Made by a program: the position numbers and the translations under genes
In this document: positions 3,656 through 64,000 of the stretch, one piece after another
How the letters are laid out: each line of letters begins with the position of its first letter
How positions within the stretch are numbered: position 1 is the first letter of the stretch
DNA from: Sipunculus nudus
Taxonomy: Eukaryota > Annelida > Sipuncula > Golfingiida > Sipunculidae
DNA: 64,000 nt
Assembly: GCA_026874595.1 (NCBI GenBank)
Contig: CM049314.1
Location: 57,956,300-58,020,299 of the forward strand
Direction of reading: 5' to 3'
Notes under the pieces: generated by a model
Databases searched by the model: none
What the model saw: only the letters and a program-made list of their open reading frames with translations
What the model was told of the DNA's origin: nothing

Positions 3656-5305
3656 ATGGACCAGAAGAGCTACATTAATAGTCCATCATCATTTCCCCTC
3701 ATGTATACAACATGGCCGGAACTGTTAGATGAACGTGTCAAGGAAAACCCAAACAAGGTAGCGCTAAAGATTTACACAGAGGATATGAATTCCGATTCGC
3801 TAACATACGCCGAACTCCAGCAGAGATCCTTGGCGGTTGCTACTGTACTCCGACGCTCGGTGCCTGAAATGGAATATGAGGACACGGTAGGCATAATCGG
3901 TGCTAACACGTGCGAACTGCTAATAACCATACATGCAGTTTTCGCTCTAGGCGCTGTGATTGTGTTTCTTCCACATCATGCTAAAACAGCTAAAGACCTA
4001 CGTCCCTTCCTGCAAACAACACAGTGTAAATTATTGGTTTTCCAGCATGGTAGTTTGGATTCCTCCACATTGGGTCCATTAGAGGAACAGGGAACCCGAC
4101 TAGTTCGTTATGGATGCAATGGTGAGGAGGGCATCAATGGGATTAGATCCCTCGGCAAACTTCTGGAAAATGTGACTTCATCGGAAGTGAATGATACGAA
4201 GAAATTGAAAAATGAAATTCACTCCGATTTGGCAGCCACAGTGTTTTTTACTTCAGGGAGCACTGGCGTTCCTAAAGCTGTTACTTACTCACATTTCCAG
4301 CTGATTAACAATGTCCATATTTTCGGAAAACAACTGAAGCTTACGCATAACGATATTTTCTTCAACGACAGGGCCATTGTCCATATTGCGTCATTCGTAT
4401 GCATACATTGGTTTCTGGTATCAGGCCTGTGCTCCGTCTGTCTGGACACTCATGTCACAAGAACGGACATAAAGACAATATTTGAAATCACTAAAAGAGA
4501 AAATTGCACCGTTTCCCTGGCGTTTGGTTATGTTCTCTTCGATATGCTAAACGCCGAAAAATTAGCAAAGCAATACCTTAGTTCCCTAAGGCTTGTCATC
4601 ACAGCGGGGCAGACGCTGAACGAACGATTAGCATCAGAATTCCGACGGGTGCTGCCAGATATTTGGCTGGTTAATGGGTTTGGGTCAACAGAAATAGGAT
4701 ACACTCTGATGAATCAGGAACGATTGGAGGAGCGGGAAGACGGCTTCATAGGGCCGCCCCTGCCGTACTATGAAATGAAAATTGTTGGAGATCATGGTGA
4801 AACATTACGACTTGGCGAAATTGGCGAACTGCATATAAGAGGCCTTTTAATGGCGATGGGGTATATGCGTGGAGACAACCTACAGGATCTGACGTCACGG
4901 GAGGGGTGGTTTGCCACCGGTGACATGGCCGTGTTGAACGGTAGCGGTCATATCAAGATCGTTGGCAGATGCGCGGACATAATTAAACGTGCTGCGATTA
5001 AAATATATCCAACAGAAGTTGAAAACGTTATTTCTGAACATCCTGAAATCAGTGCTGTCCAAGTGTTTGGCGTCCCCGACGAGCGACTCGGAGAAGAGAT
5101 CTATGCATGCGTGATTCTGAAGCAGGGCAGCACGATGAATGAGGCGGATTTGTTGGATTGGTCTGCTGGAAGATTCAAAGATTCCAAAGTTGGAGATAAT
5201 AGGGCCCCGAAGTTTGTGGAAGTATTTGGAGACTTTCCACGCCTTCCTTCTGGAAAGGTTTTCCGAAAAGGACTGAAGGCAGAAATCCTTGGGCGTATGG
5301 GCTAG
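3656..5305 (+). CDS. ACS-1: ACSF2-like acyl-CoA synthetase (AMP-binding enzyme)
   Basis: 549 codons, intact, in one exon. The family activates a carboxylic (probably medium-chain fatty) acid with ATP to an acyl-adenylate and then forms the CoA thioester. Seen: ATP-loop TSGSTGVPK at residues 199-207, the GFGSTE adenylate motif at 341-346, the GWFATGD motif with TGD at 421-423, the hinge motif GRCADIIKRAAIKIYP at 437-452, and the C-terminal PSGKVFRK with the catalytic lysine at 534. The start is the first ATG after a predicted acceptor and matches copies 3 and 4. There is no obvious mitochondrial presequence and no SKL-type C-terminus (it ends GRMG), so the location is uncertain; ACSF2 itself is mitochondrial and longer. 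The hinge has Ala447 where the family normally has Gly. Alternatives are a 4-coumarate:CoA- or luciferase-like ligase. The enzyme class is firm; the substrate is not. Confidence 0.9.
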   Translation: MDQKSYINSPSSFPLMYTTWPELLDERVKENPNKVALKIYTEDMNSDSLTYAELQQRSLAVATVLRRSVPEMEYEDTVGIIGANTCELLITIHAVFALGAVIVFLPHHAKTAKDLRPFLQTTQCKLLVFQHGSLDSSTLGPLEEQGTRLVRYGCNGEEGINGIRSLGKLLENVTSSEVNDTKKLKNEIHSDLAATVFFTSGSTGVPKAVTYSHFQLINNVHIFGKQLKLTHNDIFFNDRAIVHIASFVCIHWFLVSGLCSVCLDTHVTRTDIKTIFEITKRENCTVSLAFGYVLFDMLNAEKLAKQYLSSLRLVITAGQTLNERLASEFRRVLPDIWLVNGFGSTEIGYTLMNQERLEEREDGFIGPPLPYYEMKIVGDHGETLRLGEIGELHIRGLLMAMGYMRGDNLQDLTSREGWFATGDMAVLNGSGHIKIVGRCADIIKRAAIKIYPTEVENVISEHPEISAVQVFGVPDERLGEEIYACVILKQGSTMNEADLLDWSAGRFKDSKVGDNRAPKFVEVFGDFPRLPSGKVFRKGLKAEILGRMG

Positions 5306-8257: not shown

Positions 8258-9889
8258 TAAAAGAATCCGACTTCCCAATGCAGCGCTGGAGAAAAATGGT
8301 TGGACACTGCTAATCAATGATAACCTTGGTCCATTGATCCAAAAGTCTGACCAACTACATCTTAATTAGAAAGGCACACAGGTCTTTCGTTCAAATATAT
8401 GTATTGAAATCAAAATTGCAACCTCACTTAAAAATTTTCACACGCAAGCCGTAATAGAATTGACATGAACTGTACCCCTTGCAACCTGAACAACTTACCC
8501 TATCAAATAATTGACAGTTACATTCCTGTTGGTCACAATGAACCGCCTATCTGCTCGCAGAAAACTGGAACTTCTATTAGACACTGTTACAAAGTATCAA
8601 CAATCAACATGGCCTTACTATAATCCACTTAAATATAAGAAGTCTTCCCCCTTAATTTGATGAACTATCGCTCCTACTTAAGGTTTATACAGTCCATGTA
8701 GCTTGTCTCTCTAGGACTTATATACGATATACTGTTGGGTAAACTAAAACAATATGGCGTGTTATATAAGCAGTTCGTCCGATTCCATAACCATAATTCC
8801 GCATTGAGGTCCGTTAATACTGGTGTACCACAAGGCACGGTACTCGGACCTATTCTGCTTTTATTATACCATAACGACTTGCCTGTTTATATAACAGACG
8901 CTAAATGTTCAATTTATGCTGACGACATCACTCTATACGCAGACGTTGAGGAATTCTCTCACCTTGGCCTCATAATTGATTCACATCTCCCATGGAAATC
9001 TTACACTTCTGCTGGTTTAAAAAAGTTATGTTGCAAAAAAGGGCTATTACACAGACAAAGCAAATATCTGCCACCAAAGGTTCTACTCACAATATATCAT
9101 GGTTTCCTTCAGCCGACATTAGACTTTGGCTTAACTGTATGGGGCAGCTGTCCGAGCATCTTCCGTGCCGCTATCCAACGTATTCAGTGTCGGGTGGCAA
9201 GGAATATAACAAGAAGCTATAACCCGTCACAAAGTAGTCTGGAATTAATCAAAGAGATAGTTTGATGACAGTCGAGCAGCGATACCTTTTATCTGTTGTG
9301 ACTTATAAATGCATAAATGGTTTAGCCCCTGCGTATCTATGTGATAAATTCGCTCTGGCTAAAGACATTCATCATCATTCCACACGCTCAACCAATAACA
9401 ATAACTGTATCCTTCCCAAACCACGGATTGAATCTTTCAAAGCTGCTTTATTCTATGCAGGCAGTATCCTAGTGAATGCCCTTCCCCTGGACATTAAATG
9501 CGCCGCTAATTCGCAGAGTTTTTTAATAGCTACCACGTGCGTACTTTTCTAGTCTAACAGCGGTTTCTTAGTTTTGGCACTATACGAGATTGTTTAAGTT
9601 AGAATATTCGTTCTTACCACTCTTAGTACGAATATCTCCATGATAATCTATTTATTTTAAAGTATAATCTGTCATTTTGTAATAGTGTTATTGTCTTAGT
9701 AAGTCTTTCATATTCGTATTGTAATTTGTACTTTAATTCTATTTCATGGTCATATTTTGTTGTTTAAAAATTTCTTGTACTTTATATATGTAACAGGGCC
9801 CTGCTTACAAGAGAAGTGTTCTTCTGGTGCAGGCTACCCTGCATGTTATTGTAATAAATCTATTACTTAATAAATAAATAATCCTTAGA
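8258..9889 (+). mobile_element. Internally deleted non-LTR retrotransposon with RT remnant
   Basis: The left part (about 8620-8690) contains NIRSLPP..FDEL-like codons, the usual start of a LINE endonuclease. It jumps to reverse transcriptase with GVPQGTVLGP (about 8826) and the catalytic YADD at 8915-8926. A second internal deletion follows, and the frame resumes with HLGLIIDSHLPWK. After a frame change at about 9262 the C-terminal YKCINGLAPAYL region is seen, then a non-coding tail with TAAATAAATAA. Unit 2 has an uninterrupted equivalent at 31079-31100, so the edges are set by an empty site. Most of the endonuclease and RT palm is missing, so it cannot be autonomous. Confidence 0.8.
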
Positions 9890-12711: not shown

Positions 12712-13090
12712 TTATCTGTATGTTTTTAAAAATAAATACAGACACGCACATATATATGGGCTTCAGCACGGGGGGGGGGGGGGTAGGGGTACTAGAATGG
12801 GAGGATAAATGTTATAATACCCCCTGCTGTTCAGAGAATAAGATTTACAGACTGGATTTATATACTGGAAATGAAATACGTCAATTATTATAATGAGAGA
12901 CTTTGTTTATATTTCTGCCTTTCTGCTTCACCATATTTTAAAAATCTTATACTTTGATTGCATCAAACTACACCAAGTCGTTAAAGAAGGTTGTAGTACA
13001 CTGTTTCACCAATAGGGAACAGCACTTAAGTCTGAAGGATACCATCATGAATTACTGGAAATGGGGCACTTTTAAAATGTGCCTGTATTA

Positions 13091-25167: not shown

Positions 25168-26818
25168 ATGAACCTGAAGAGCTACATCAATTATCCATCA
25201 TCAGTTCCTCTCCTGTATACAACATGACCGGAACTGTTAGATGATCATTTCAAGAAAAACCCCAACAAGGTGGCGCTGAAGATTTACACACAAGATATGA
25301 ATTTCGATTCGCTGACATACGCCGAACTCCAGCAGAAATCCCTGGAGGTTGCTACTGTTCTCCGACGCTTGGTGCCTGGAATGAAATATGGGGACATGGT
25401 AGGCATTATCGGTGCTAACACGTGCAAACTGCTGATAAACATACATGCAGTATTCGCTCTAGGCGCGGTGATTGTGTCTATTCCACATTATGTTAAAACA
25501 GCTAAAGACCTACGTCCCTTCCTGCAAACAACACAGTGTAAAATATTGGTTTTCCAGCACGGTAGTTTGGATTCCTCCACATTGGGTCCAATAGAGGAGC
25601 AGGGTACCAGGCTAATTCGTTATGGAGATAATGGTGAGGAGGGCATCAATGGGATTAGATCCCTCCGCAAACTTCTGGAAGATGTGACTTCATCATATGT
25701 GAATGATACTAAGAAGTTGAAAAATGAAATTTGCTCCGATTTGGCAGCCGCAGTATTTTTTACCTTATGGGAGTACTGGCGTGCCTAAAGCTGTCACTTA
25801 CTCACATTTCCAGCTGATTAACAATGTCAATGTTTTCGGAAAACAACTGAAGCTTACGCAAAACGATATTTTCTTCATCGACAGGGCCATTGTCCATATT
25901 GCGCCATTCCTATGCATACATTGGTTTCTGGTTCCAGGCCTGTGCTCTGTCTTTCTGGACACTCATCTCACAAAAACCGACATAAAGACAATATTTAAAA
26001 TCATTAAAAGAGAAAATTGCACCGTTTCTCTGGCGTTTGGTTACGTTCTCTTCGATATGCTAAACGCCGAAAAATTAACAAAGCAATACCTTAGTTGCCT
26101 AAGGCTTGTCATCACATCGGGGCAGACGTTGAACGAAAGAATAGCATCAGAGTTACGACGGGTGCTACCAGATATTTTTCTGGTTAATGGGTTTGGGTCG
26201 ACAGAAACAGGATGGACCCTGATGAATCAGGAACGATTGGAGGAACAGGAAGACGGCTTCATAGGGCCGCCCCTGCCGTACTATGAAATCAAAATTGTTG
26301 GAGATCATGGTGAGACATTACGACTTGGCGAAATTGGCGAACTGTATATAAGAGGCCTTTTAATTGCGATGGGGTATATGCATGGAGACAGCCTACAGGA
26401 TCTGAAGTCACGGGAGGGGTGGTTTGCCACCGGTGATATGGCCGTGTTGAACGCTGGCGGTCATATAAAGATCGAAGGCAGATGCATCGAAATAATCAAA
26501 CGTGCTGGGATTAAAATATATCCAGCAGAAGTTGAAAATGTAATTTGTGAACATTCTGAAATCAGTGCTGTCCAAGTGTTTGGCGTCCCCGACGAACGCC
26601 TAGGAGAAGAGATCTACGCATGTGTGATTCTGAAGCAGGGCAGCACGATGAAGGAAGCGGATTTGTTGGAATGGTTTGTTGAAAGATTCAAAGATTCCAA
26701 AATTGGAGATTACAGGGCCCCTAAGTATGTGGAACTATTTGATGATTTTCCACGCCTTCCTTCTGGAAAGGTATTCCTAAAAGAACTTAAGGCAGAAATC
26801 CTTGGGCGTATGGGCTAG
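25168..26818 (+). pseudogene. ACS-2: ACSF2-like acyl-CoA synthetase pseudogene
   Basis: Full-length homologue of ACS-1/3/4, closest to ACS-3. Three lesions are visible. Codon 20, Trp (TGG) in the other copies, is TGA at 25225-25227. One extra base at about 25761-25769, inside the ATP-binding loop (accttatggg where the others read acttcgggg), shifts the frame. The upstream splice-acceptor CAG is missing. After the shift the frame is open to the normal stop, with GFGSTE, TGD, GRCIEIIKRAGIKIYP and PSGKVFLK all preserved. A late ATG could give a C-terminal fragment, but it would lack the complete ATP loop. Decay therefore looks recent. Confidence 0.9.
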
Positions 26819-30529: not shown

Positions 30530-31910
30530 CTCTGAAGAAAAACAACACTGTTAATTCACAACAGTCTGTTTCACGGGATGCAGGTGAATGTGGTTATATA
30601 TATATACATTTATTTATCAAACGGGAACGGCGAAATTCATGGAAGGGAAATCATTTAGCTATAGAAATGTTGATATCTGGATCCATCATGGGTATATATC
30701 CAAATTAATTATTCTTCAGATACAAATAGATATCAGCATGGCAAAGACACACGCTTATAGCCCGGTGTTTCTGTGATTTATTGGCCTTAACGCTTAGCTG
30801 ACTGAAGGTCATATGACCTATAGAGATCACTCCTTGTCCGTCGTCCGTAGGGCCACCCGGCACTCCGGCCGAGTGAGACCTGGAATCTTCTCACTTGACA
30901 TCCGACACTCTCGACATCGACATACGTTTGATCGAATTGAGTAACATACTGAGTGAATAGCATCTGTCCTATAATTTGTGTTATCCATTTAATATCATAC
31001 ATGGAAAGAAAAAGACTTTCGATAAAGGAGCAATAGCAAAAACCATGCAAGATAAATTCTAACCTCTGTTATAACCTCTGTGTACCCGGGCGAATCCTTA
31101 GAGACACTTGCCCGTATAACACGCCGACGTAATAAGGAACTACACTTTTGTACTTACGTTTTTGCCTGGAACCTGGACACTGATGCGCGCCTTGCGATAT
31201 CATGGCACAGATTTTGGGTCCACGAATGAGTAGAAACACACAATCTGCAGTTGTGCACAGCACCCTGCTTTCTAACCTGATTTGACAGTGAATAGTGCAA
31301 TATCTTTCCGATAGCACTTGCGTAAGTGATGGCACCCTGTATATTATGCATTACAATATCGAGAACACTGTCAGAATAACTGAGTCGGTGTTTTACTAAC
31401 AAGTGACATAAATTGACATTAACAATTAAAACAAAATTATCACGACATAGTAACCAATGATGGAATTTACTTGGCACCCTATTCTACTTACAATTTGTTT
31501 TCTGGCTGGCAGAACAAAGCTTTTCTAGGTACCACAATACCTCTGACACAGCTTTAGAAGTAAACAGCTGAACCTTTCCTGTTAGCATGGCAGGTCAGTT
31601 GTTTTTTTGTATTAGAATGGTCACTGATCATCTTATTCAGTGCATGACTACTTGTCCGCTTGAACACTTACTCGTTCGTATGCCAAATTATGCCCGAGAT
31701 AACGCTAACTGGTTTTGTATGGAGAATTTGACACATTCAGTTTCAGAGAGGTGGTGATAATGCCACCCCTGTCCACTCACCTAGGGGCGTTAATAGGGGG
31801 GGGGGGGTTCATATATCCCCACATATTTTACAAAGTGGGGATAGTCAATGTAATCACCCCTCCCCCCGACCCCTGATATTCAGATAAAATTGTTTATATA
31901 TTGGAAAAGA
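29625..31910. repeat. Unit 2 segment paired with 6510-10681 and 48225-49190; no gene
   Basis: Collinear with unit 1 except that the two LINE insertions of unit 1 are absent here. It includes a G-run (30307), the CAGGGGCGGATCCAGGAT tract, a TA tract (30475-30528), a GTCCGTC-type repeat (30785-30905) and a second G-run (31798). Confidence 0.6.
30475..30528. repeat. (TA)n microsatellite
   Basis: TA run producing antisense and sense YIYIYI frames only. Confidence 0.95.
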
Positions 31911-33486
31911 AATATTTTAATTATTATAGTCTTTGGTAAATTTTCTTTGTTTATTATGAAATTATATATATCTAAACCTGGTTTGAATTAACCTATGCTG
32001 AGAACATAATACCATATTTTTTTAAAATCTCATACTTAGCTGTAAGGTCTAGAACTGATTTCATTATACAGAGATTGTCTGTCTTATCTTAATCAAATTA
32101 AAAGGTAGACTGGAATTTGATTTTGGTCATTTAATAAGCTCTCACTATTAACGAAATACAGATTTATTTATTTACCCAGTAAAACCCAGGAAAAGGCAAT
32201 ATTAAATATGTTGTGTTAGAATTGTTTTCCATATTTTCCCTCGTGAATAAAAACAGGATGAATACCACTCTAAGTGTTGCAACAATAACTTTTTAAAGTC
32301 GGTAATTCATAGATTTTAAAGTACTTTGACCTATGCAAGGCTAAGTTTCAGCCACGTTACGGGCCCAATTCAAGGACCGACAGTTATTCAAAATAGGGTA
32401 GAAGAGTATTTCCCACATACAACCATGCAACGAATGAATACAATGGAATTGATACTCCTTTTTTACTGTTAACATGGTAGTAGGTAACCAATTCATGGCA
32501 ATATTTGTAAGATCTATTAAACAACTGGTATATTGGGCTCGGGTTCCTGAAGAATCAGAAAACAAATTAGTAATATTATTTGCCGCCAAGTAGCAGCACC
32601 TGTTCTAGGGTTTGCCATGGCGAGACCAGGTCTCATCAGCTGTTGGTCACGTGGTCCTATTTATATACCTGATATAGAGCAGTGAATGGTCTGGTTTTCT
32701 TTGGTTCGGTCCAGCCATTATGTGATGGAGAATCAAAAACATGACATTGCTTGATTTTTATAAGTATGTAAAAAAAGGTTCATGTTTTCTATGTGATTAG
32801 AATTCTTTGAAAAAAGTTATACAATTCTATAATACAGTTGAGAGTATTGGTCATTTTTTTTTATCTGTAGCCAATCAAAGACATGTTCTCAAAACTGCTT
32901 GAAGGGGTATTTTCGGTATCACTGCATTCGGGCCATGTTGGCTGGAAAAGGAGATGCACAAGCTCCCATTTCCTTGGACTTGTTTGACTGAAAAACAACT
33001 CTTAGGTAAAGAAAAAGTGTAATATCAGAATTTATTTTGAGAGTTATCCAAAAGAGGCCCGCTGCATAAAAAAACATATATACTTATATATATATATGTT
33101 TTTAAATAAATACACACAAGCACATATATATTCGGGCTTCAGCACGGGGGGGGGGGGGTAGGGGTAATAGATTACCCCCCACGTTTTTGCAATGGGGATG
33201 ATAAATGTGATCATACCCCCGTCTGTTCACAGAGTAGGATTTAAAGACTGGATTTATATATACTGGAAATAAAATTCGTCAATGATTATAATGAGAGATT
33301 TCATTTAAATTTCTGCCTTTCTGCTTTACCATATTTTTTTAATCTTATACTTGGATTGCATCAAACTGCACCAAGCCATTCAAGATAGTTGTAGTACACT
33401 GTTTTACCAATAGGGGACAGCACTGAAGTCTGAAAGATGTCATCATCTATTACTGGAAACGGGGCACTTTTAAAACGTGCCTGTAT
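31911..33486. repeat. Right part of unit 2, paired with 11981-13110; no gene
   Basis: From about 32450 it is collinear with unit 1. The first 500 bases correspond to what the LTR element replaced in unit 1, and their beginning resembles 58200-58340 in unit 4. A G-run of about 12 lies at 33147. Confidence 0.55.
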
Positions 33487-43031: not shown

Positions 43032-44681
43032 ATGAACCAGAAGAGCTACATCAATAATCCACCATCGCTTCCTCTCCTTTATACAACATGGCCGGAACTG
43101 TTAGACGAACATGTCAAGAAACACCCCCATAAGGTGGCGCTGAAGATTTACACAGAAGATATGAATTCTGATTCGCTGACATACGCCGGACTCCAGCAGA
43201 AATCCATGGCGGTTGCTACTGTTCTCCGACGCTTGGTGCCTGAACTGAAATATGGGGACACGGTAGGCATTGTCGGTGCTAACTCGTGCGAACTGCTGAT
43301 AAACATACATGCAGTATTCGCTTTAGGCGCCGTGATTGTGTCTATTCCACATTATGTTAAAACAGCTAAAGACCTACGTCCCTTCCTGAAATCAACACAG
43401 TGTAAATTATTGGTTTTCCAGCACGGTTGTTTGGATTCCTCCACATTGGGTCCAATAGAGGAGCAGGGTACCAGACTAGTTCGTTATGGAGATAATGGTG
43501 AGGAGGACATCAATGGAATTAGATCCCTCAGCAAACTTCTGGAAGATGTGACTTCATCGGTCGTGAATGATACTAAGAAGTTGAAAAATGAAATTTGCCC
43601 CGATTTGGCAGCCGCAGTATTTTTTACTTCGGGGAGTACTGGCGTGCCTAAAGCTGTCATTTACTCACATTTCCAGCTGATTAACAATGTCAATGTTTTC
43701 GGAAAACAACTGAAGCTTACGCAAAACGATATATTCTTCAACGACAGGGCCATTGTCCATATCGCGCCATTCCAATGCATACATTGGTTTCTGGTTCCAG
43801 GCCTGTGCTCTGTCTGTCTGGACACTCATCTCACAAAAACCGACATAAAGACAATATTTAAAATCATAAAAAGAGAAAATTGCACCGTTTCTCTGGCGTT
43901 TGGTTATGTTCTCTACGATATGCTGAATGCCGAAAAATTAGCAAAGCAATACCTTAGTTCCCTAAGGCTTCTCATCACATCCGGGCATACGTTGAACGAA
44001 CGAATAGCATCAGAGTTCCGACGGATATTACCAGATATTTGGCTGGTTAATGCGTTTGGGTCAACAGAAATAGGATGCACTCTGATGAATCAGGAACGAT
44101 TGGAGGGACAGGAAGACGGCTTCATAGGGCCGCCCTTGCCGTACTATGAAATCAAAATTGTTGGAGATCATGGCGAGACATTACGACTTGGCGAAATTGG
44201 CGAGCTGTATATAAGAGGCCTTTTAATGGCGATGGGGTATATGCATGAAGAAAGCCTACAGGATCTGACGTCACGGGAGGGGTGGTTTGCCACCGGTGAC
44301 GTGGCCGTGATGAACGATAGCGGTCATATAAGGATCGTAGGGAGATACATCGACATAATCAAACGTGCTGGGATTAAAATATGTCCAGCAGAAGTTGAAA
44401 ATGTAATTTCTGAACATCCTGAAATCAGTGCTGTCCAGGTGTTTGGCGTCCCCGACGAGCGCCTAGGAGAAGAGATATACGCATGTGTGATTCTGAAGCA
44501 GGGCAGCACGATGAAGGAAGCGAATTTGTTGGAATGGTTTGCCGAAAGATTCAAAGATTCCAAAATTGGAGATTATAGGGCCCCTAAGTATGTGGAACTA
44601 TTTGAAGTCTTTCCACGCCTTCCTTCTGGAAAGGTATTCCGAAAAGAACTTAAGGCAGAAATCCTTGGGCGTATGGGCTAG
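43032..44681 (+). CDS. ACS-3: ACSF2-like acyl-CoA synthetase
   Basis: 549 codons, intact, collinear with ACS-1 without gaps. Seen: TSGSTGVPK at 199-207, AFGSTE at 341-346 (Ala341 where the other copies have Gly), GWFATGD with TGD at 421-423, GRYIDIIKRAGIKICP at 437-452, and PSGKVFRK with the catalytic lysine at 534. The hinge keeps the family glycine at 447 but has Cys451 where the others have Tyr. It is nearest to the ACS-2 pseudogene: both share SIPHYVKTAKD and HLTKTDIKTIFKI, where copies 1 and 4 have (L/I)PHHA(K/Q)TAKD and HVTRTDIKTIFEI. It should catalyse ATP-dependent acyl-CoA formation. It is the only working copy of its subtype in the window. Confidence 0.9.
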   Translation: MNQKSYINNPPSLPLLYTTWPELLDEHVKKHPHKVALKIYTEDMNSDSLTYAGLQQKSMAVATVLRRLVPELKYGDTVGIVGANSCELLINIHAVFALGAVIVSIPHYVKTAKDLRPFLKSTQCKLLVFQHGCLDSSTLGPIEEQGTRLVRYGDNGEEDINGIRSLSKLLEDVTSSVVNDTKKLKNEICPDLAAAVFFTSGSTGVPKAVIYSHFQLINNVNVFGKQLKLTQNDIFFNDRAIVHIAPFQCIHWFLVPGLCSVCLDTHLTKTDIKTIFKIIKRENCTVSLAFGYVLYDMLNAEKLAKQYLSSLRLLITSGHTLNERIASEFRRILPDIWLVNAFGSTEIGCTLMNQERLEGQEDGFIGPPLPYYEIKIVGDHGETLRLGEIGELYIRGLLMAMGYMHEESLQDLTSREGWFATGDVAVMNDSGHIRIVGRYIDIIKRAGIKICPAEVENVISEHPEISAVQVFGVPDERLGEEIYACVILKQGSTMKEANLLEWFAERFKDSKIGDYRAPKYVELFEVFPRLPSGKVFRKELKAEILGRMG

Positions 44682-53861: not shown

Positions 53862-55511
53862 ATGGACCATAAGAGCTACATCAATAATCAATCATCAGTT
53901 CCTCTCCTGTATACAACATGGCCAGAACTGTTAGATGAACGTGTCAAGGAAAACCCCCACAAGGTGGCGCTGAAGATTTACACAGAGGATATGAATTCCG
54001 ATTCGCTGACATACGCCGAACTACTGCAGAAATCTCTGGCGGTTGCTACTGTACACCGACGCTTGGTACCTGAACTGAAATATGGGGACACGGTAGGCAT
54101 TATCGGTGCGAACACGTGTGAACTACTGATAAACATTCATGCAGTATTCGCTCTAGGCGCGGTGATTGTGTTTATTCCTCATCATGCTCAAACAGCTAAA
54201 GACCTACGTCCCTTCTTGCAAACAACAAAGTGTAAATTATTGGTTTTTCAGCACGGTAGTTTGGATTCTTCCACATTGGGTCCACTAGAGGACCAGGGTA
54301 CCAGACTGGTTCGTTATGGAGACAATGGTGAAGAGGGAATCCATGGGATAAGATCCCTCAGCCGACTTCTGGAAAATGTGACTTCATTGGATGTGAATGA
54401 TACTAAAAAGTTGAAAAATGAAATTCACTCCGATTTTGCAGCCGCGGTATTTTTTACTTCGGGGAGCACTGGGGTACCAAAAGCTGTCACTTATTCGCAT
54501 TTCCAGCTGATTAACAATGTCCATGTTTTCGGAAAACAACTGAAGCTTACGCAAAACGATATTTTCTTCAACGACAGGGCCATTGTCCATATTGCGCCAT
54601 TCCTATGCATACATTGGTTTCTGGTATCAGGCCTGTGTTCTGTCTGTTTGGACACTCATGTCACAAGAACCGACATAAAGACAATATTTGAAATCATTAA
54701 AAGAGAAAGTTGCACCATTTCTCTGGCGTTTGGTTATGTTCTCTTTGATATGCTAAACGCCGAAGAATTAGCAAAGCGATACCTTGGTTCCCTAAGGCTT
54801 GTCATCACAGCGGGGCAGACGTTGAACGAACGAATAGCATCAGAATTCCGACATGTGCTACCAGACATTTGGCTGGTTAATGGGTTTGGGTCAACAGAAA
54901 TAGGATACACTCTGATGAATCAGGACTTATTGGAGGAGCACGAAGACGGATTCATAGGGTCACCCCTGCCGTACTATGAAATGAAAATTGTTGGAGATCA
55001 TGGTGAAACATTACGTCTTGGCGAAATTGGCGAACTGTATATTAGAAGCCTTTTAATGGCCAGTGGGTATATGCGTGGAGACAGCTTTCGGGATCTGACG
55101 TCACGGGAGGGGTGGTTTGCGACCGGTGATATGGCTGTATTGAACGGTAGAGGTCATATCAAGATCGTAGGCAGATGCGCTGACATAATCAAACGTGCTG
55201 ACATTAAAATATATCCAGCAGAAGTTGAAAACGTTATTTCTGAGCATCCTGAAATCAGTGCTGTCCAGGTGTTTGGCGTCCCCGACGAGCGACTAGGAGA
55301 AGAGATCTATGCATGCGTGATTCTGAAGCAGGGCAGTACGATAAAGGAGGCGGATTTGTTGAAATGGTTTGCTAGAAAATTCAAAGATTCCAAAGCTGGA
55401 GATTATAGGGCCCCGAAGTTTGTGGAACTATTTGAAGACTTTCCACGCCTTCCTTCTGGAAAGGTATTCCGAAAAGAACTGAAGGCAGAAATCCTTGGGC
55501 GTTTGGGCTAG
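53862..55511 (+). CDS. ACS-4: ACSF2-like acyl-CoA synthetase
   Basis: 549 codons, intact, without gaps relative to ACS-1, its closest relative. Seen: TSGSTGVPK at 199-207, GFGSTE at 341-346, GWFATGD with TGD at 421-423, GRCADIIKRADIKIYP at 437-452 and PSGKVFRK with the catalytic lysine at 534. Asp447 replaces the usually conserved hinge glycine, a larger change than Ala in ACS-1; this loop swings the C-terminal domain between adenylation and thioesterification, so turnover could be altered. Other private changes are IGSPLPYY (Pro to Ser) and SLLMASGY. No targeting signal is evident; the C-terminus is GRLG. An AATAAA lies at 55562-55567, about 50 bases after the stop. Confidence 0.9.
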   Translation: MDHKSYINNQSSVPLLYTTWPELLDERVKENPHKVALKIYTEDMNSDSLTYAELLQKSLAVATVHRRLVPELKYGDTVGIIGANTCELLINIHAVFALGAVIVFIPHHAQTAKDLRPFLQTTKCKLLVFQHGSLDSSTLGPLEDQGTRLVRYGDNGEEGIHGIRSLSRLLENVTSLDVNDTKKLKNEIHSDFAAAVFFTSGSTGVPKAVTYSHFQLINNVHVFGKQLKLTQNDIFFNDRAIVHIAPFLCIHWFLVSGLCSVCLDTHVTRTDIKTIFEIIKRESCTISLAFGYVLFDMLNAEELAKRYLGSLRLVITAGQTLNERIASEFRHVLPDIWLVNGFGSTEIGYTLMNQDLLEEHEDGFIGSPLPYYEMKIVGDHGETLRLGEIGELYIRSLLMASGYMRGDSFRDLTSREGWFATGDMAVLNGRGHIKIVGRCADIIKRADIKIYPAEVENVISEHPEISAVQVFGVPDERLGEEIYACVILKQGSTIKEADLLKWFARKFKDSKAGDYRAPKFVELFEDFPRLPSGKVFRKELKAEILGRLG

Positions 55512-58340
55512 AACAGGTTCATATTTCTTTAACATCTGACATTTGCATTAGAGCAAAGTAAAATAAATTTTGAAAATATAGATAAATGCGAACGCGTATG
55601 TAAGTCAGCTGTGAATATCAGCTTATGATTTTATTTGTAAAACATATTATTATATATTGTTAATTGTAAAGGAAGCATTTCATGTTCTTTACAATTCCAT
55701 CACAATTCTTTGTTTTAGCGACCCTGCTTGCTTATGCGATAGTTGGTGAGGTTATCCGTTCAGTCTGAACGTTTATTTCAAGTAATATACCGGTTGTCTA
55801 TAATGAAAATTAAATGAAAGTGATCGCAGTTTAATTTCGTATAGACTGAAAAGATTGAACATAATGGCCTTTAAAAAAATCATTTATCAAAGTAGGCCCT
55901 TGGAAAATCTCCTTGCAAACCAAATGTAGGTTCCTGCGACCTATATTTTACGAATTAAGCGCGTTTTCGTGTTTTCCACACTTACAAAAATCAGACTTGT
56001 TTTAGTGTTCTTGGCTGCACAACAAATATTCTGCACTCGAAACTAGAACTATAACATTATGCATCAACTGCACATATTACATTGTTACCATGCAAAATGA
56101 AAAAACATCGGCACAGCCAGCTCTTCTGAACTGCTGTCGACACAACTGCAAAATTTTATCATTTCCATCTGTTGATGTATGAAAGTCTTAATTCATAAAA
56201 TATCTCAGTAATGATTGTATGATTCATTCTGAAATTCAGCAAGCTTTTTGAACATAAAAAGCACTTTCAGCTGTAGAAGACTTACGGTACAATCTACATT
56301 TTCTTATTTTTATGCAATTCTTTTGTATTATTTGTACACAGAAATCACGGCAAGCCAGTTGTTAACAAGGCACAAATTATAATCGCTTGAAATAAAAACT
56401 GTTCACTTAATATGCAGGAAGGTAGTTTTTAGTATCCTGTTATACAATACAAAAGGTCACAATGGCTTTTTTTGTAGGCCTGTTATGCCTGTTTTATGTG
56501 ATTTCAGCACTTAGAAAATCAGGCTCGTGTTAGTGTCATTGGCTACAAAACAAAACATATGCACTCAGCCCTATAACTAAAAAATTGTGCTTTATCTGCC
56601 CATATAACATTGTTACCATGCATAAAATTCAGAAGATCCGCGCAGCCAGTTCACCAGAAGTTCGAGAGTTTCAGATGTTTATGTATGAAATCCATAATCT
56701 TCAGTAACACCTCAGTAATACTTGCATGGATCTTTCTGAAATTCGACAAGCGTATTGATCATTGAAAGTCCTTTCAACTTTGAAAGACTGGTTTATACCA
56801 TCTTTATTTTCTCTATTTTTACGCAATTTTTAATGTATCTTTACATTGAAATTACAGCCGGCCAGATGTAAACGGAGCACAAATTGTAACCGCTTGACCT
56901 AAAAATTTCTTACTTAACATTTACACTGATCCGTGGTAAATCTCGGAGGATTCCAAAACATTTGACCAATAGGACCTATATTTTGCAAGTTACATTTGCT
57001 TTAGCGTGTTTTTAGCACACTTAAATATACACAATGCTCAAATCCATCAATATGTTTTCTTTTCTTTTTATATTTAAGATCTTACTCATTTCATGAAGTG
57101 TAAAGAAATCTGTCTCTGAGAAGATCCCCCCCTTGACAAAGCGCAAGATATCATAATTACATAAATATGAGATTTACATTTGGTGGCGTATTATCAAGTT
57201 ATAACTGTATATATAAACTATCTGTATATACACCTCATTTGGTTGTGACATACTCCTTAATGGTTACACTTATATGAAATGGATTAGTGGTCAATCGGGC
57301 GAAATATAAAACTCATCTGGCCATGATTATCTAAAATATAACGCCTAAAGAAATAAAATTAAACCATTTTATTAAATTCATCTAGATACAGGCCACACCA
57401 AGCATTAATGTCTCAACCGAATCTTGGAACAAAAATATGGTGTGACGGAAGAATGATGAATTTTTTCTTTGTTTCACCAGTGTAACCATGCGTGTACTTT
57501 TCAAACGTTTACAAGGAATAGTACAAAGATTAACTTCAGTTCTCGAAATGTTGCATAAAATCAACAGAAATTTAGTTAATAATCTATACATTTGGAATTA
57601 TTTTAAGGAACTGATGGAAGAGCACATACCCGCAACATTACATGAGGACCTGGTCTTCTTTTAAAAAACCCAAAAGGATCGATAGAAAACGGAAGACGAG
57701 AATCCGTAGACATCTTTTATGTTCAGAAGTTTACGCCGAGATATATTGCAACGAATGTACATAATATGAAACCCCGTTGTGCCTTGCCCTGTACAATAAT
57801 TGAAACGAACTTCAGTCTTATAACTCTTACTTCACCAACCTCAGGTAGAGGTGCGGACCAGAACAGCCCGGCCCGTCAAATTAAGGGTCCGATTCTTGTC
57901 CGGTGTAGCTGCTGTGGGCGGACATGTCCGGTACATGGACAGTTCAAGTAGTCCGATTCAAATATTAGAATATTATTAAAATAAATTTAAATTGTAGTTT
58001 TTGCTATATTGTGTATAATGTCTCTTCAAATACATTGTTCGAATATTTATCAAAACCGAATATCATAGTCATAGCTAACCATGTAATTAATGTAATGTTA
58101 TAATTCGTTGGTGAATCGTATAGGGGGGATGGGGGGGATATATCCACTCGCTTTTCAGCGAGAGGTTATGAATGGTCAATGTAATCATTTCGCCTGCTTT
58201 TCAGAGAATAATATTTGTATACTGGATATGAAATATTTAAATTATTGTAATTGCAAACTTTGGTTCCATTTCTAGGTTTTACAATGAACCATTGAATACC
58301 TAAACCTGGTTTAGAAGTAATATGTCAGGTTAATTATGTT
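55512..58340. repeat. Downstream block of unit 4; no gene
   Basis: Collinear with 44682-48060 in patches: the 500-base imperfect repeats (55880-57040), the cacaccaagcattaatg region (57390) and the GTGCGGACCAGA repeat (57850). At 58120-58340 it matches the G-run family and then 31900-31990 of unit 2, so the unit homology continues to about 58330, just before the transposon. Confidence 0.55.
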
Positions 58341-58390
58341 TCACTATGTTTAGATTTGAACTTTCGTTGGATTTTTGTGGAGATTATGAA

Positions 58391-58600
58391 AACTATACCT
58401 TTTTGTAAACCTTATACTATAGACAATCAGAAAAACAATGATTCTATTTGCCTTGCGTCCTATATTGCCGCCATCTTGGATTTTACAAAATGGCTGCTGT
58501 GAAAAATGTTTTTTGTTAATATCTCAGCTTCTAATTAACCTAGAGCTTTTATTTTGACAGCTACACTACCATGTTCAAGGCCAAGAAATCCAATACTCGT
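58391..58600 (+). repeat. Left terminal inverted repeat
   Basis: Its reverse complement is found at 63803-63994. Anchors: aactatac (58391-58398 with 63987-63994), caatgattctatttgcc (58436-58452 with about 63936-63952), atctcagcttctaa (58521-58534 with 63868-63881, perfect over 14 bases), aacctag (58538-58544 with 63859-63865). Identity looks around three quarters by eye, with small indels. Confidence 0.8.
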
Positions 58601-61600
58601 AGTTGCAGATGGGTAGAGGCATTTGTTACAGCAGTTCAAAGAAATACTAAATTCATAAAAACACTTGGTCATTAGGCCGTACTGAGCACGAACCACAAGG
58701 ACATGATAATCTAGTGGTGTGATTATTGAAATAGGCTAGTATTATGTATGTGTAACAGTTTACTGTACCCTTTATGAAAGTTGGCGGTGAGTGTATTATT
58801 ATTATTTTTTTGGAGGCTCTAAGCATGAGTGACAAACCACAAGCTGCTAAAGGAGCTACTTGTCAAGGTCAAGAGACTATCAACAGGAAAGTATGTATGC
58901 TGTGCCAGTCTGATGCTGAAGGGTTGGTGCAACATCGCCGTCAAGACTCCTACCAGCGTGTGCTGGACATAATATAGGGAGAGGGTCAGTATGCATGAAG
59001 ACAACTATGTTGAGCTCCAACGATGACTGCAAAGCTGTACAAAGAACACATTCTGTACACATCAGGCAGTGTATCATCGTAGTTGCTATGCAAATGCAAC
59101 TAATAAAGACCAAACCCAGCGTGCCCGAGACCGTCATGCACATGTATTAGCTACTGGCTACCACACTGCCAAGAAACGTGGACAGAAAAGAGGGAGCACT
59201 GCAATGGGTGAATCAGGTTAATCAACATCTGGCTCTTTAACACCATCCACACGGTCCTGTACATGTTCGTTGGATAAGAAACAATGTTTCTTTTGTCAGA
59301 AAGATGATGGTGAACTGCTCTATCAGGTAAGAACAGTCAAAGCTGTGAAATCTCTTTAAAGAAGTTGTTGAAAGATCCAATAATGACAAACTGAAAACAA
59401 GACTGAACACATGCATTGCACTAGGGAATGCGCATTCAATTGATGTTCGGTACCACAAAACCTGTTGGACAAAGCATTTTTTTCCATGGACAGCAAGAAA
59501 CGAGCACCATTTGAAGCAGAAAAGGCCGCCAAGATCCCTTGCTACAGCATGCAAATCTGATCGAGCTGATCAACTTCATTGATGTCCAAACACAGAACCA
59601 AGCATACCTACCTATGGAAGATATCGAAACGACATATGTTAATATGCTTGGCCCAAAAGGCTTGGAAAACCTACATTCAATAGAAAGTGGTTGAAAGAAA
59701 AGATCTGCAATGTCTTGCCACACTTTAAGTCCTGCCTTTAAAAATCGAAGGAAATCAGCTGTTCTCTATTCCCCAGGTGAATGTGAGGAAAGCATGGTCA
59801 ATACTGCGATGGAAAGTCATGGTGAAGAGAACAACATGCAGACAATCTACAAGGCAGCAGAGGTATTGAGAAAAAGCATTGCAAACTTTACCAAATTAGC
59901 CACTGATACAAACACCATATGGTCAACAGTGACATCCAGGACGTTCCAGCTGAACTATATACCCTAATCCGCTGGATCATGATAAGACCTGCTGACAGCA
60001 TGGAAACTCAAAGTAGGACCAAAGTTGTTGACAGAGCAGCAGTCACAGTGAGCCAGAACATCATGTATGGATTCAAATCCAACCGACAGGTCAAGTACAG
60101 GCCAAGAAGAGAATCAGCAGCGTTCAGGCCACCTCATGCACGAGAAAACACACAGGTCCTGGGACTGGCTCTTATTGTTCATCGCGACACCCGCAACAAG
60201 ATTCTGTTGGATCTGCTCAGTGCACATGATTATTGTGTACCGTATTGCCGTACCCTACTAATTGAAACAGCTCTGGCCAATGCTGTTGTAAAAAACATCC
60301 GAGAGTTCTGAGGTCTGCATGTACCACCTTTCTTGAAGAAGGGTGCCTTTGTGTTCTTCGCAGTAGATAACATAGACCATTAGGAGGACACTGCTGATGA
60401 GAAAGGAACCATCCATGGAACGATTACTGGTGTATACCAGAAGGCAGAGATACCTAATGAACCAGTTGCACCAACCTTGAAGATTTGCGATGCCCAGAGT
60501 CTAACTGTCACTCCATACCGTGTAGATATGCTGCGCTGTGACAAGTCAAAACCACTGCTTGCCAAGAAGACAAACCACTTCATCACGAGTAAGAGAGTCT
60601 CAGGATCCTACCAGCTGGCACAACTAGGAAAGATTGTTGCCACTGTTTTATCCAGAATGGAAGCAGGGGAAGCATCAAGCAGTATTCCAGGCTGGGCAGG
60701 ATAAACCTGACTGCTGTCTGACAGCAAGCCGCTCACCCAGGTCGGAGCCCTACCACTACTCCTAGAAGTAGCACACGGGTGGTCAACCCTGCTGACTATG
60801 ATCTTTCAAGCAAGTCAACTGAGAAAGCTGTTTGTTTGTGAAGATCACCACATTGTAATTTCATTTGACATGTCTCTCTATGAGAAGGTGGTCCAGCTGC
60901 TAGATCCAAGATCTCACCTGATAAGCACAGTTGTGCCACGACTGGGAGAGCCATATGTTGTCATGGCTGTCATTCCCGCTCTTGGTGCCTCCATTGAGAA
61001 CTCCTGTATCGATGATGCATGGATAGAAGCTAATGTCTATGGGTCTGCAACAACAAGGCAAATCCTGAAGTGTACCCATTACAAGTGTGCTCTTCGTACC
61101 TATTCATATGCAGCTCTCCATGAAATGGCACTGGAGGAGTTCATCAAGGTCATCCCACAACTGAAAGAGGTCAGTATGAAGGCCACAGAGGGAATTGTCC
61201 GCCTGTTCAGAGGGGAGCAAGGACACAAAAGTTGAGTCTGTGAAACAAGCAAACACCAGCCTATTTGAGGCCTTGACCACTGCTGATGTCATCACAGTTT
61301 TCCAAGAGTTGGAGAAATAGAGATCCAAGAGTGCAATGTTCAAGGCAATGATGAAAACCTACATCGAGTGGAAGCGATCCTGCTCTTAGTCGCTGCAACC
61401 CGAAATGCTGACCTGAAACTTCATCTTCAAGCGGAAGAGTAGTTGAGTAAGTTCTTCTTCGCATTAAACCGGATTAAATACAAGCAACTCTGGCCCAGAT
61501 GCATCACAGACATGTATGATCAGAGGACCAACCACCCTGAAACCTGGAAAGAGCTGCAAGCAGGCAACATTGCAGTCATGAAGAATGACATTCCCTCTGT

Positions 61601-62387
61601 ATCCATTGGGGCTGACCATGCATGCGAACATCTGAACATGCTAATAGAAAACTCATTCTGGACTTATCGGCATCTCAAACAATGCCAATGCTAGACAGAG
61701 GTTCTTTTTTATGTCACACCATAACTCTCCCGTACTGCAAAAGCGTTCAAGAGTCAGCTTGACTTAGAATCTGACAAAACAAGAGAGCATCATGACCTTG
61801 GGCCAAGTGCTGTCAAGAAGGAGCATGTTGTTATCGACCAGATCTAGGCAGCCCTAAGGAGAAATGGAAACACATTTGCTGCTGAAATTGACAAGCTGCA
61901 CAATGTGATCACTCATGCCTACATCCCTGATGAGTATGTACTAACGATCTTGAATGCTAAAAAGACTGGTCAAAAGCTGTATGAAGACTACGTGTCAGAG
62001 AGGATCAATGGAGTTGTCAGCCTGTGGGCACCAGTAATGAAGGAGAACAACAAAATGTTTATGTCTGCAAACAAGAAAGCCAGAGTTAATCTCCGAGACA
62101 AGACTGTGGATCTAAAGGTGACCAAGAACTTATACGGCAGACTGATGGTCCGGGCCAGGTCCAGCAGAGAAATCAACCAGAAAGATGTCATTGGGAACCA
62201 TAAATTCACTCTGACACCAAGAGCCCTTTTAGCTCCAGATGGTACAATCCTGCCATGCCTTGACAAATCGAAGTTGATCCACCTCGTCAACAAGTTAACA
62301 ACAGTAGAAACTCCATAGGAAGAACTGCAGCAAGAAGATGGGATCGACCCCACACCAGATGCTCAAAAAAGCAAGACAGCCCTGGTA

Positions 62388-63041
62388 GATGGAATGGTTC
62401 TCCTACTGAAGATGGCCAAGAAACCAGCAACCATAGTCACAGTCAAAGATCTGAGTAAATGCTTCATTTACCGGCTGATGTCCCTAACACGAGATTACGA
62501 TGAAATCCTCCTCGTGTTTGACACATACAGGGATGTTTCTCTGAAGAGTGAAACAAGGGATAAAAGACGGCAAGGAAGAGCACCAATCCAGTATCAGATC
62601 AGAGATGACACAAACATAAGACATATCTCAATTAGCAGGTTCCTTTCACATGACAAGACGAAGGCTGACCTGACCAACTATCTTGCTGCTAAGACTATAA
62701 GAGTACAACAACACATCACAGAAACTGGTCATCACCTCTTCTTCAGGGCATACCAAGAACAACAAAGAACTGCATTTCCAGGACAACAATCATGAAGACA
62801 CACTGTTGATCTACCAGGCTTTCCTGGCATCACAGCGACACCCATCGGATGCACAGATGATTTTCTTCTCCCAAGACTCAGATGTCCTGGTGTTTCTCAA
62901 AACAAACTTTGGCCTTATGCTGAAGAATACGTCAATTTCCATGGCCTCTGGGGTTATAGGGATAAAGCCAATATGAAGAGCTTTAGGAACAGAGAGAGCA
63001 AAGGTTTTGCAAGGGTTCCATGCGCGTTCACAGGTGCTGAC
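62388..63041 (+). other. FEN1/XPG-like nuclease domain inside the transposon gene
   Basis: The metal-binding positions of flap nucleases can be followed: LVDGMVLL (Asp 62388-62390, like FEN1 D34), LVFDTYRDVSLKSETRDKRR (Asp 62520-62522, like D86), NNHEDTLL (62791-62799, like the E158/E160 helix but with a shortened ExE), QDSDVLVF (62875-62883, like D179/D181), and AFTGADN followed by GKATW (Asp 63039-63041, like D233 and the helix-hairpin-helix). The D179-D233 spacing is 54 residues in FEN1 and about 55 here. The frame shifts twice (near 62750 and near 63025) and returns to the original frame. Confidence 0.65.
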
Positions 63042-63350
63042 AACACTGTAAGATTCTTTCATATTGGCAAAGCAACATGGCTGCAAGTCTGCATGAAGGC
63101 AGACAGAGATGTAATCAGTCCTCTGCAGATGCTTTCAGTAGAAACAGAAATGACCGAAACTATGTTGGCCACTCTTGCCAGCTTCGTCTGTGAAGCCTAC
63201 TCCCCCAAAGGTATCTACATCGAGGCCATCTCCGAAATGCGATGGCATCTCTTTTGCAAGCATATGGCAGAAAGTGATAAGCTAGCTCTTACCCTAGGCG
63301 CTCTGAGAAAACATGTCCTTAGAGTCCATATCCAAGCCAGGGTGTGGGGA

Positions 63351-63569
63351 TAGGCCAGCATTGCTCTGCAGAATCCGCAGCTGGATCCCCTACGGAATTG
63401 CTACCACAAGGGGTCCGATGGTCAGCTGAAACCAACCATGTCAAATGCCCTTCTAACTCCCAAGGCCATCATTGAGATGGTTAGCTGTCAATGCAAAACA
63501 GACTGTTTATCTGTCAGATGTTCTTGTCGAAGAGAGAACTTATCCTGCACCGATCTTTGCCAGTATTGA
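63351..63569 (+). other. CXC-like cysteine-rich C-terminus behind an in-frame TAG
   Basis: After TAG (63351-63353) the same frame continues NPQLDPL..KPTMSNALLT and then CQCKTDC..VRCSC..ENLSCTDLCQ, ending TGA 63567-63569. Spacing C-x-C-x3-C-x5-C-x-C-x6-C-x3-C resembles tesmin/CXC-type zinc-binding motifs. One base change would make the stop, so the extension clearly belonged to the gene. Confidence 0.65.
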
Positions 63570-63802
63570 GAGTCAGAATGGTGAGGACACACTTGAACAA
63601 GTATGAAACTGATGATAACGATGGTGACATGTAAAGACTCCTTCGTTGTCTAAAAGAGTAAACCCATTTCTGTCGTGAGGAGCACGTTGGTTGTTAATGC
63701 ACCCTATGCCAGTGGAACGTTGATGTCTGATCAACTGTAGAACTGTAAAACGAATAATTTCAGTCAAACAGGTCTGTGGTTTAATCTAGCTGATTTATTT
63801 TG

Positions 63803-64000
63803 ATACCATTGGAGTCCTCGATCCTAAAAATGGTGATTTAGCTATCACAATCATATTTCTAGGTTATTTAGAAGCTGAGATGTTGAACAAAACCTTTTTC
63901 ACGGAAGCAATAAGATGGGGCCATATGTGTATCAGGGCAAATGGATACATTGTTTTTTAATTGCTTATACAATAAAATCCAAGAATGTATAGTTCTGATA
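63803..64000 (-). repeat. Right terminal inverted repeat (cut by the window end)
   Basis: Reverse complement of 58391-58600. The match is still running at 63994, so the outer end probably lies beyond 64000. Confidence 0.75.

Follow-up and report, generated by a model that had tools for sequence, protein, structure and literature searches.

Within the Academ superfamily of DNA transposons, target-site duplications of 3 or 4 bp are given for AcademX and of 9 or 10 bp for AcademH in the cited part of PMC10045372, which ties them to the encoded nuclease or helicase. Curated Academ elements of bivalves average 5565 bp in the cited part of PMC10294476, and the superfamily is treated as DDE/D there and in the cited part of PMC9004415. 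Here, 64,000 nucleotides of the genome of Sipunculus nudus (assembly GCA_026874595.1, contig CM049314.1, C9:57956300-58020299, forward strand) were analysed. This whole stretch is called the window, and positions are counted from its first letter. At its right end lies an element of 5722 bp, which extends from 58322 to coordinate 64043 (C9:58020342), i.e. 43 bases outside the window. The element is best explained as a cut-and-paste DNA transposon fitting the nuclease branch of Academ, AcademX, a reading that we hold with a probability of about 0.86. It thus agrees with a type of transposon described before, with the window copy as a further member. The nuclease of AcademX is presumably of the XPG type.

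Boundaries and insertion site of the element

A 3-bp duplication, AAT, stands on either side of the element, which interrupts a dispersed repeat. The features at its borders are as follows.

58178..58318, plus strand: left part of the target dispersed repeat (blastn matches to 31872-31991 and 12808-12916; alignment with 16 copies)
58319..58321, no strand: left copy of the target-site duplication AAT; the right copy, at 64044-64046, is outside the window
58322..58594, plus strand: left terminal inverted repeat (TIR) of 273 bp; its first two bases are unlike those of the other tips, and it carries an insert of 10 bases close to the tip
63808..64000, minus strand: right TIR, 236 bp in total, the last 43 bp of which lie outside the window, up to coordinate 64043; tip TAGTCAG

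The strongest evidence for the boundaries of the element is its empty site. The interrupted repeat resumes beyond the right end, outside the window. It has a second window copy at 31850-32080 and is present in high copy number in the genome (1.43 Gb in 153 contigs were searched; 40 places were scored of 1941 candidates). When the two flanks were joined by one AAT, they aligned across the junction to 16 other copies of the repeat, namely the second window copy and 15 others hand-picked among the 40 scored places. For 15 of the 16 copies none of 500 random right flanks gave an equally good alignment, and for the remaining copy one of 500 did; with the second window copy of the repeat the result was 0 of 5000. 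Shifting the left cut by 1 to 6 bases either way, with the right side fixed, lowered the score every time. Because the joined flanks align through the junction, the element inserted into a pre-existing high-copy repeat and duplicated AAT.

The ends of the element are inverted copies of each other. A blastn search of the flanks against the window paired 58385-58594 with 64000-63808 in inverted orientation at 69.5% identity (E-values of 1.2e-18 to 1.4e-18, and of 1.8e-16 with the whole window as query), and two blocks within this match were also found by a repeat search. The local alignment of flank against flank scored 85, compared with at most 44.5 in 300 dinucleotide shuffles; none of 278 pairs of random window segments reached 85, the highest noted being one pair at 83. 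The match runs on past the window edge into the adjoining chromosome, and 183 of the 235 aligned bases of the complete arms are identical. The tip TAGTCAG followed by TTTCACTATG stands at the right end of the element and also at the left end of another copy, L008; the 10-base insert of the element is located directly behind its left tip. Left and right arms were about 70% alike, while left arms compared with left arms, or right with right, were 80 to 84% alike between copies. Since the left-right divergence exceeds the same-side divergence, the arms of the window element were probably already unlike each other before this copy decayed.

A preliminary description of the same DNA had proposed a bounded DNA transposon at 58391..64000 on account of its inverted flanks. 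The bounded transposon is supported by the empty site and the 3-bp duplication, the inverted match was recovered by blastn, and the three anchor motifs named at that time do follow one another in matching order within one inverted alignment; the arms, at 273 and 236 bp, go well beyond a few dozen bases. The minimum length of 5.6 kb also held, but the proposed left end fell 69 bp short of the one at 58322, and the right end proved to be outside the window.

A search of the genome with the right arm gave 5 places, 2 of which were the arms of the element itself. The remaining three loci were incomplete within the fetched stretches: the match to L008 covers the left end and first half of the element (81 to 83%), that to L010 its right end and inner parts (83 to 85%), and that to L011 a right part (about 71%). 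The coincidence of copy ends with the inverted repeats had been set beforehand as a test of the transposon; the left end of L008 (position 897) falls on the edge of the element, and the right end of L010 (about 5204) falls near it, with a tip that is not conserved. The flanks outside these two copies scored 23 and 19, compared with a median of 19 and a 95% point of 27 for random window segments, and thus resemble each other no more than such segments do. The window copy is old, rare and dead. A single frame from 59901 to 63564 contains 15 stops, and the gene changes frame several times; with its gene disrupted in this way, the copy is no longer able to transpose.

The decayed gene and its relatives

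The gene between the arms could be divided into four parts.

58774..59712, plus strand: N-terminal part with paired cysteines and broken frames (three-frame translation)
60711..61691, plus strand: transposase-like part (profile E-values of 1.1e-28 for 60711-61232 and 3.6e-15 for 61443-61691)
62319..63350, plus strand: FEN1/XPG-like 5'-nuclease domain, split over two frames at a break near 62792 (profile E-values of 1.8e-33 for 62319-62792 and 2.5e-11 for 62796-63350; alignments A2 and A4; fold of a relative)
63480..63566, plus strand: C-terminal cysteine-rich stretch resembling the CXC (tesmin/TSO1) motif (Pfam TCR, E-value of 0.7, under the cut-off; cysteine pattern)

The nuclease piece 62319-62792 found 29 places in the genome, itself included, and 25 of the 28 other places form five families (A with 7 members, B with 3, C with 9, D with 4 and E with 2), with DNA matches of 79 to 97% inside each family. 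A profile that excluded the window sequence was seeded from a family-D relative whose open frame has 711 codons. It found six window pieces, in order; two of these are additional to those listed above, 61287-61439 with an E-value of 1.1e-3 and 61848-62315 with 1e-7. That family-D protein alone, as query, found two of the six (E-values of 2.2e-11 and 2.6e-8). Because a profile made without the window sequence finds the six pieces in order, the window gene belongs to the same protein family over both the transposase-like and the nuclease part. The only scanned piece of the N-terminal part, 58774-58974, had no Pfam match; an NCBIfam search yielded nothing of use, and an Rfam search yielded no match.

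A family-B relative alignable with the window piece was modelled (predicted local distance difference test, pLDDT, 87.5), and the model contains a 5'-nuclease domain with the fold of FEN1, EXO1 and XRN. The structure search with this model had 50 PDB entries among the matches listed, all of them 5' nucleases, with 7 to 16% identity in the structural alignments listed. The acidic motifs of the domain stand in what we take to be the order of FEN1. The modelled fold thus supports the prediction that the gene family of the element encodes a flap-type (FEN/XPG-fold) nuclease, as had been suggested in the preliminary description. Searches of PDB sequences with proteins and profiles found no 5' nuclease, and two profiles gave a few weak, unrelated chains; single-protein searches of viral and phage collections found no relative of the nuclease piece.

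At least 104 matches were obtained when the genome was searched with the nuclease domain, some being pieces of one copy; 93 of 331 candidates were scored, and 12 nuclease stretches and one longer stretch were fetched. Eight of the listed matches belong to frames that have 705 to 1229 codons and are stop-free within the match. The longest of these frames (L075 443-4129, C14:48705600-48710600), with 1229 codons and free of stops, spans the transposase-like part and the nuclease of that relative. At another nuclease relative, L018 2062-3021, the next frame enters a stretch that by eye looks reverse-transcriptase-like, perhaps a nested retroelement.

In the part before the nuclease, 3 of 11 family members matched Pfam DUF6589 (best E-value 1.6e-6), and this match was absent from the scanned window piece 60798-61232. 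Candidate acidic residues were counted with one residue per locus (first row) over L017-L044, L063, L064, L066-L075 and the window; L065, which lies inside L075, and L016, L045, L046 and L047-L049, which repeat others, were left out. The first candidate column had D throughout (10 of 10 loci), and the last had E throughout (21 of 21). By its sequence this part appears transposase-like, with a candidate DDE core.

The ends of related elements were similar. Three family-C copies were read to their ends; they are 91 to 95% alike over their main stretches and 85% in one part, and one copy is without an inner part. In all three the copy ends are also the ends of inverted arms; the match between the arms is 75% over 191 bp for C1 and 69% over 189 bp for C3, and for C2 it is limited to a block of 84 bp (73%). 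Arms and gene are laid out as in the window element. Family-C elements begin with TAGTG and end with CACTA. Their duplications are TCG and TTA, with CAG/TAG at the third copy, and those of two family-B copies are TGA and AAG, so that four of these five copies have an exact 3-bp duplication. Nine of the ten tips of the five copies read TAGT and one AAGT; the only readable family-A end also appears to start with TAGT. No inverted arms were found in family B by blastn.

Elsewhere in the window, a gene named from its translation only as adenylate-forming-enzyme-like occurs in four tandem copies (3656-5305, 25270-26818, 43032-44681 and 53862-55511), three of which are 549-codon frames and one of which is broken; the blocks are 83 to 88% alike. 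A 176-codon frame at 8735-9265 reads by eye like part of a reverse transcriptase.

Class of the element and possible mechanism

The preliminary description had named Academ, XPG branch, as the closest architecture, and the 3-bp duplication together with the nuclease do fit AcademX as given in the cited part of PMC10045372. Several observations weigh against the assignment to AcademX or against parts of it. At the ends, the left tip of the window element is ATGTCAG instead of TAGTCAG, the repeat copy at 12808-12916 is uninformative on the junction, as its alignment stops before it, and the arms of family B are weak (local score of 55, compared with at most 46.5 in 300 shuffles). The nuclease profile A4 matched nothing among PDB sequences up to an E-value of 10 and reached only 0.074 with an asteroid-like XPG protein, and Pfam XPG_N was matched by only 1 of 17 members, the window piece itself, at 0.094. 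The middle acidic residue of the core has two candidate columns, one with D in 17 of 21 loci (D in the window) and the other with D in 20 of 22 (N in the window).

Two further points of this kind also speak for a different explanation, an undescribed TIR superfamily outside Academ that carries a FEN-type nuclease and moves in the same way with another transposase core. The assignment to AcademX rests on layout, duplication and nuclease, with known Academ elements compared by description only and not by sequence, and the model of the transposase part is poor, with a pLDDT of 48; in addition, the Pfam family that best matches the core, DUF6589, has no known function. Against such a superfamily stand the agreement of nuclease and 3-bp duplication with AcademX and of 5722 bp with the bivalve mean, in the cited parts of PMC10045372 and PMC10294476, and we regard it as distinctly unlikely. 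A duplication of 3 bp would also suit other superfamilies, among them CACTA/EnSpm and PIF/Harbinger, and family C does have CACTA-3' as its right terminus. CACTA/EnSpm elements, however, have the termini 5'-CACTA ... TAGTG-3'; the motif is reversed in family C (TAGTG...CACTA), and the right tip of the window element reads TAGTCAG inwards. PIF/Harbinger elements duplicate TWA, which TTA fits and TCG, TGA, AAG and AAT do not. We also know of no FEN-type nuclease in either superfamily, and such an origin is very improbable. That two neighbouring repeats came to lie in opposite orientation by coincidence, around an unrelated decayed host gene, is hardly credible. Repeats abound in the window, and one pair of random segments nearly equalled the score of the arms (83 vs 85), but the empty site has a single AAT, two other copies share an outer edge along with parts of the gene, and family C keeps arms and gene in the same layout.

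For an AcademX transposon, a mechanism can be proposed that starts from what was observed, i.e. inverted arms, a 3-bp duplication, insertion into a repeat, relatives with like ends and relatives with long open frames. The protein would bind the inverted arms through its cysteine-rich parts, and an RNase H-like (DDE) core would link the ends to a target cut with a 3-bp stagger. The FEN/XPG-fold domain might then act on the remaining strand, trimming or cutting it at the ends or at flap intermediates. In a more far-reaching version, the FEN/XPG-fold nuclease would be an obligate half of the transposase and not an accessory, setting the 3-bp stagger and cutting the second strand at the ends, and the elements would be a distinct branch with their own TAGT tips and long asymmetric arms; this we consider unlikely.

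Comparison with known systems

For the window, the outcome is an ordinary one: an anonymous repetitive gene turns out to be a dead transposon. To our knowledge the role of the nuclease in Academ transposition is untested, although no dedicated literature search was made. With ends and duplications fixed for two families and many relatives at hand, this role becomes testable. Among the papers searched, none has the whole words Academ, transposon and XPG together, and none mentions DUF6589.

The C-terminal domain of the element shares its fold with the 5' nucleases FEN1, EXO1 and XRN; it differs from them in its low identity (7 to 16%) and in being part of a transposon protein. AcademH, with its duplications of 9 or 10 bp and its helicase in the cited part of PMC10045372, differs from the window element, where the duplication is 3 bp. 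No helicase was seen among the Pfam matches of the window pieces and their relatives, the gene having been scanned only piecewise. AcademX, in the same part of PMC10045372, is like the window element in the 3-bp duplication, the nuclease and the inverted arms, and at the level of published descriptions the comparison showed no difference between them. The length of 5722 bp is likewise close to the mean of 5565 bp for Academ elements of bivalves in the cited part of PMC10294476.

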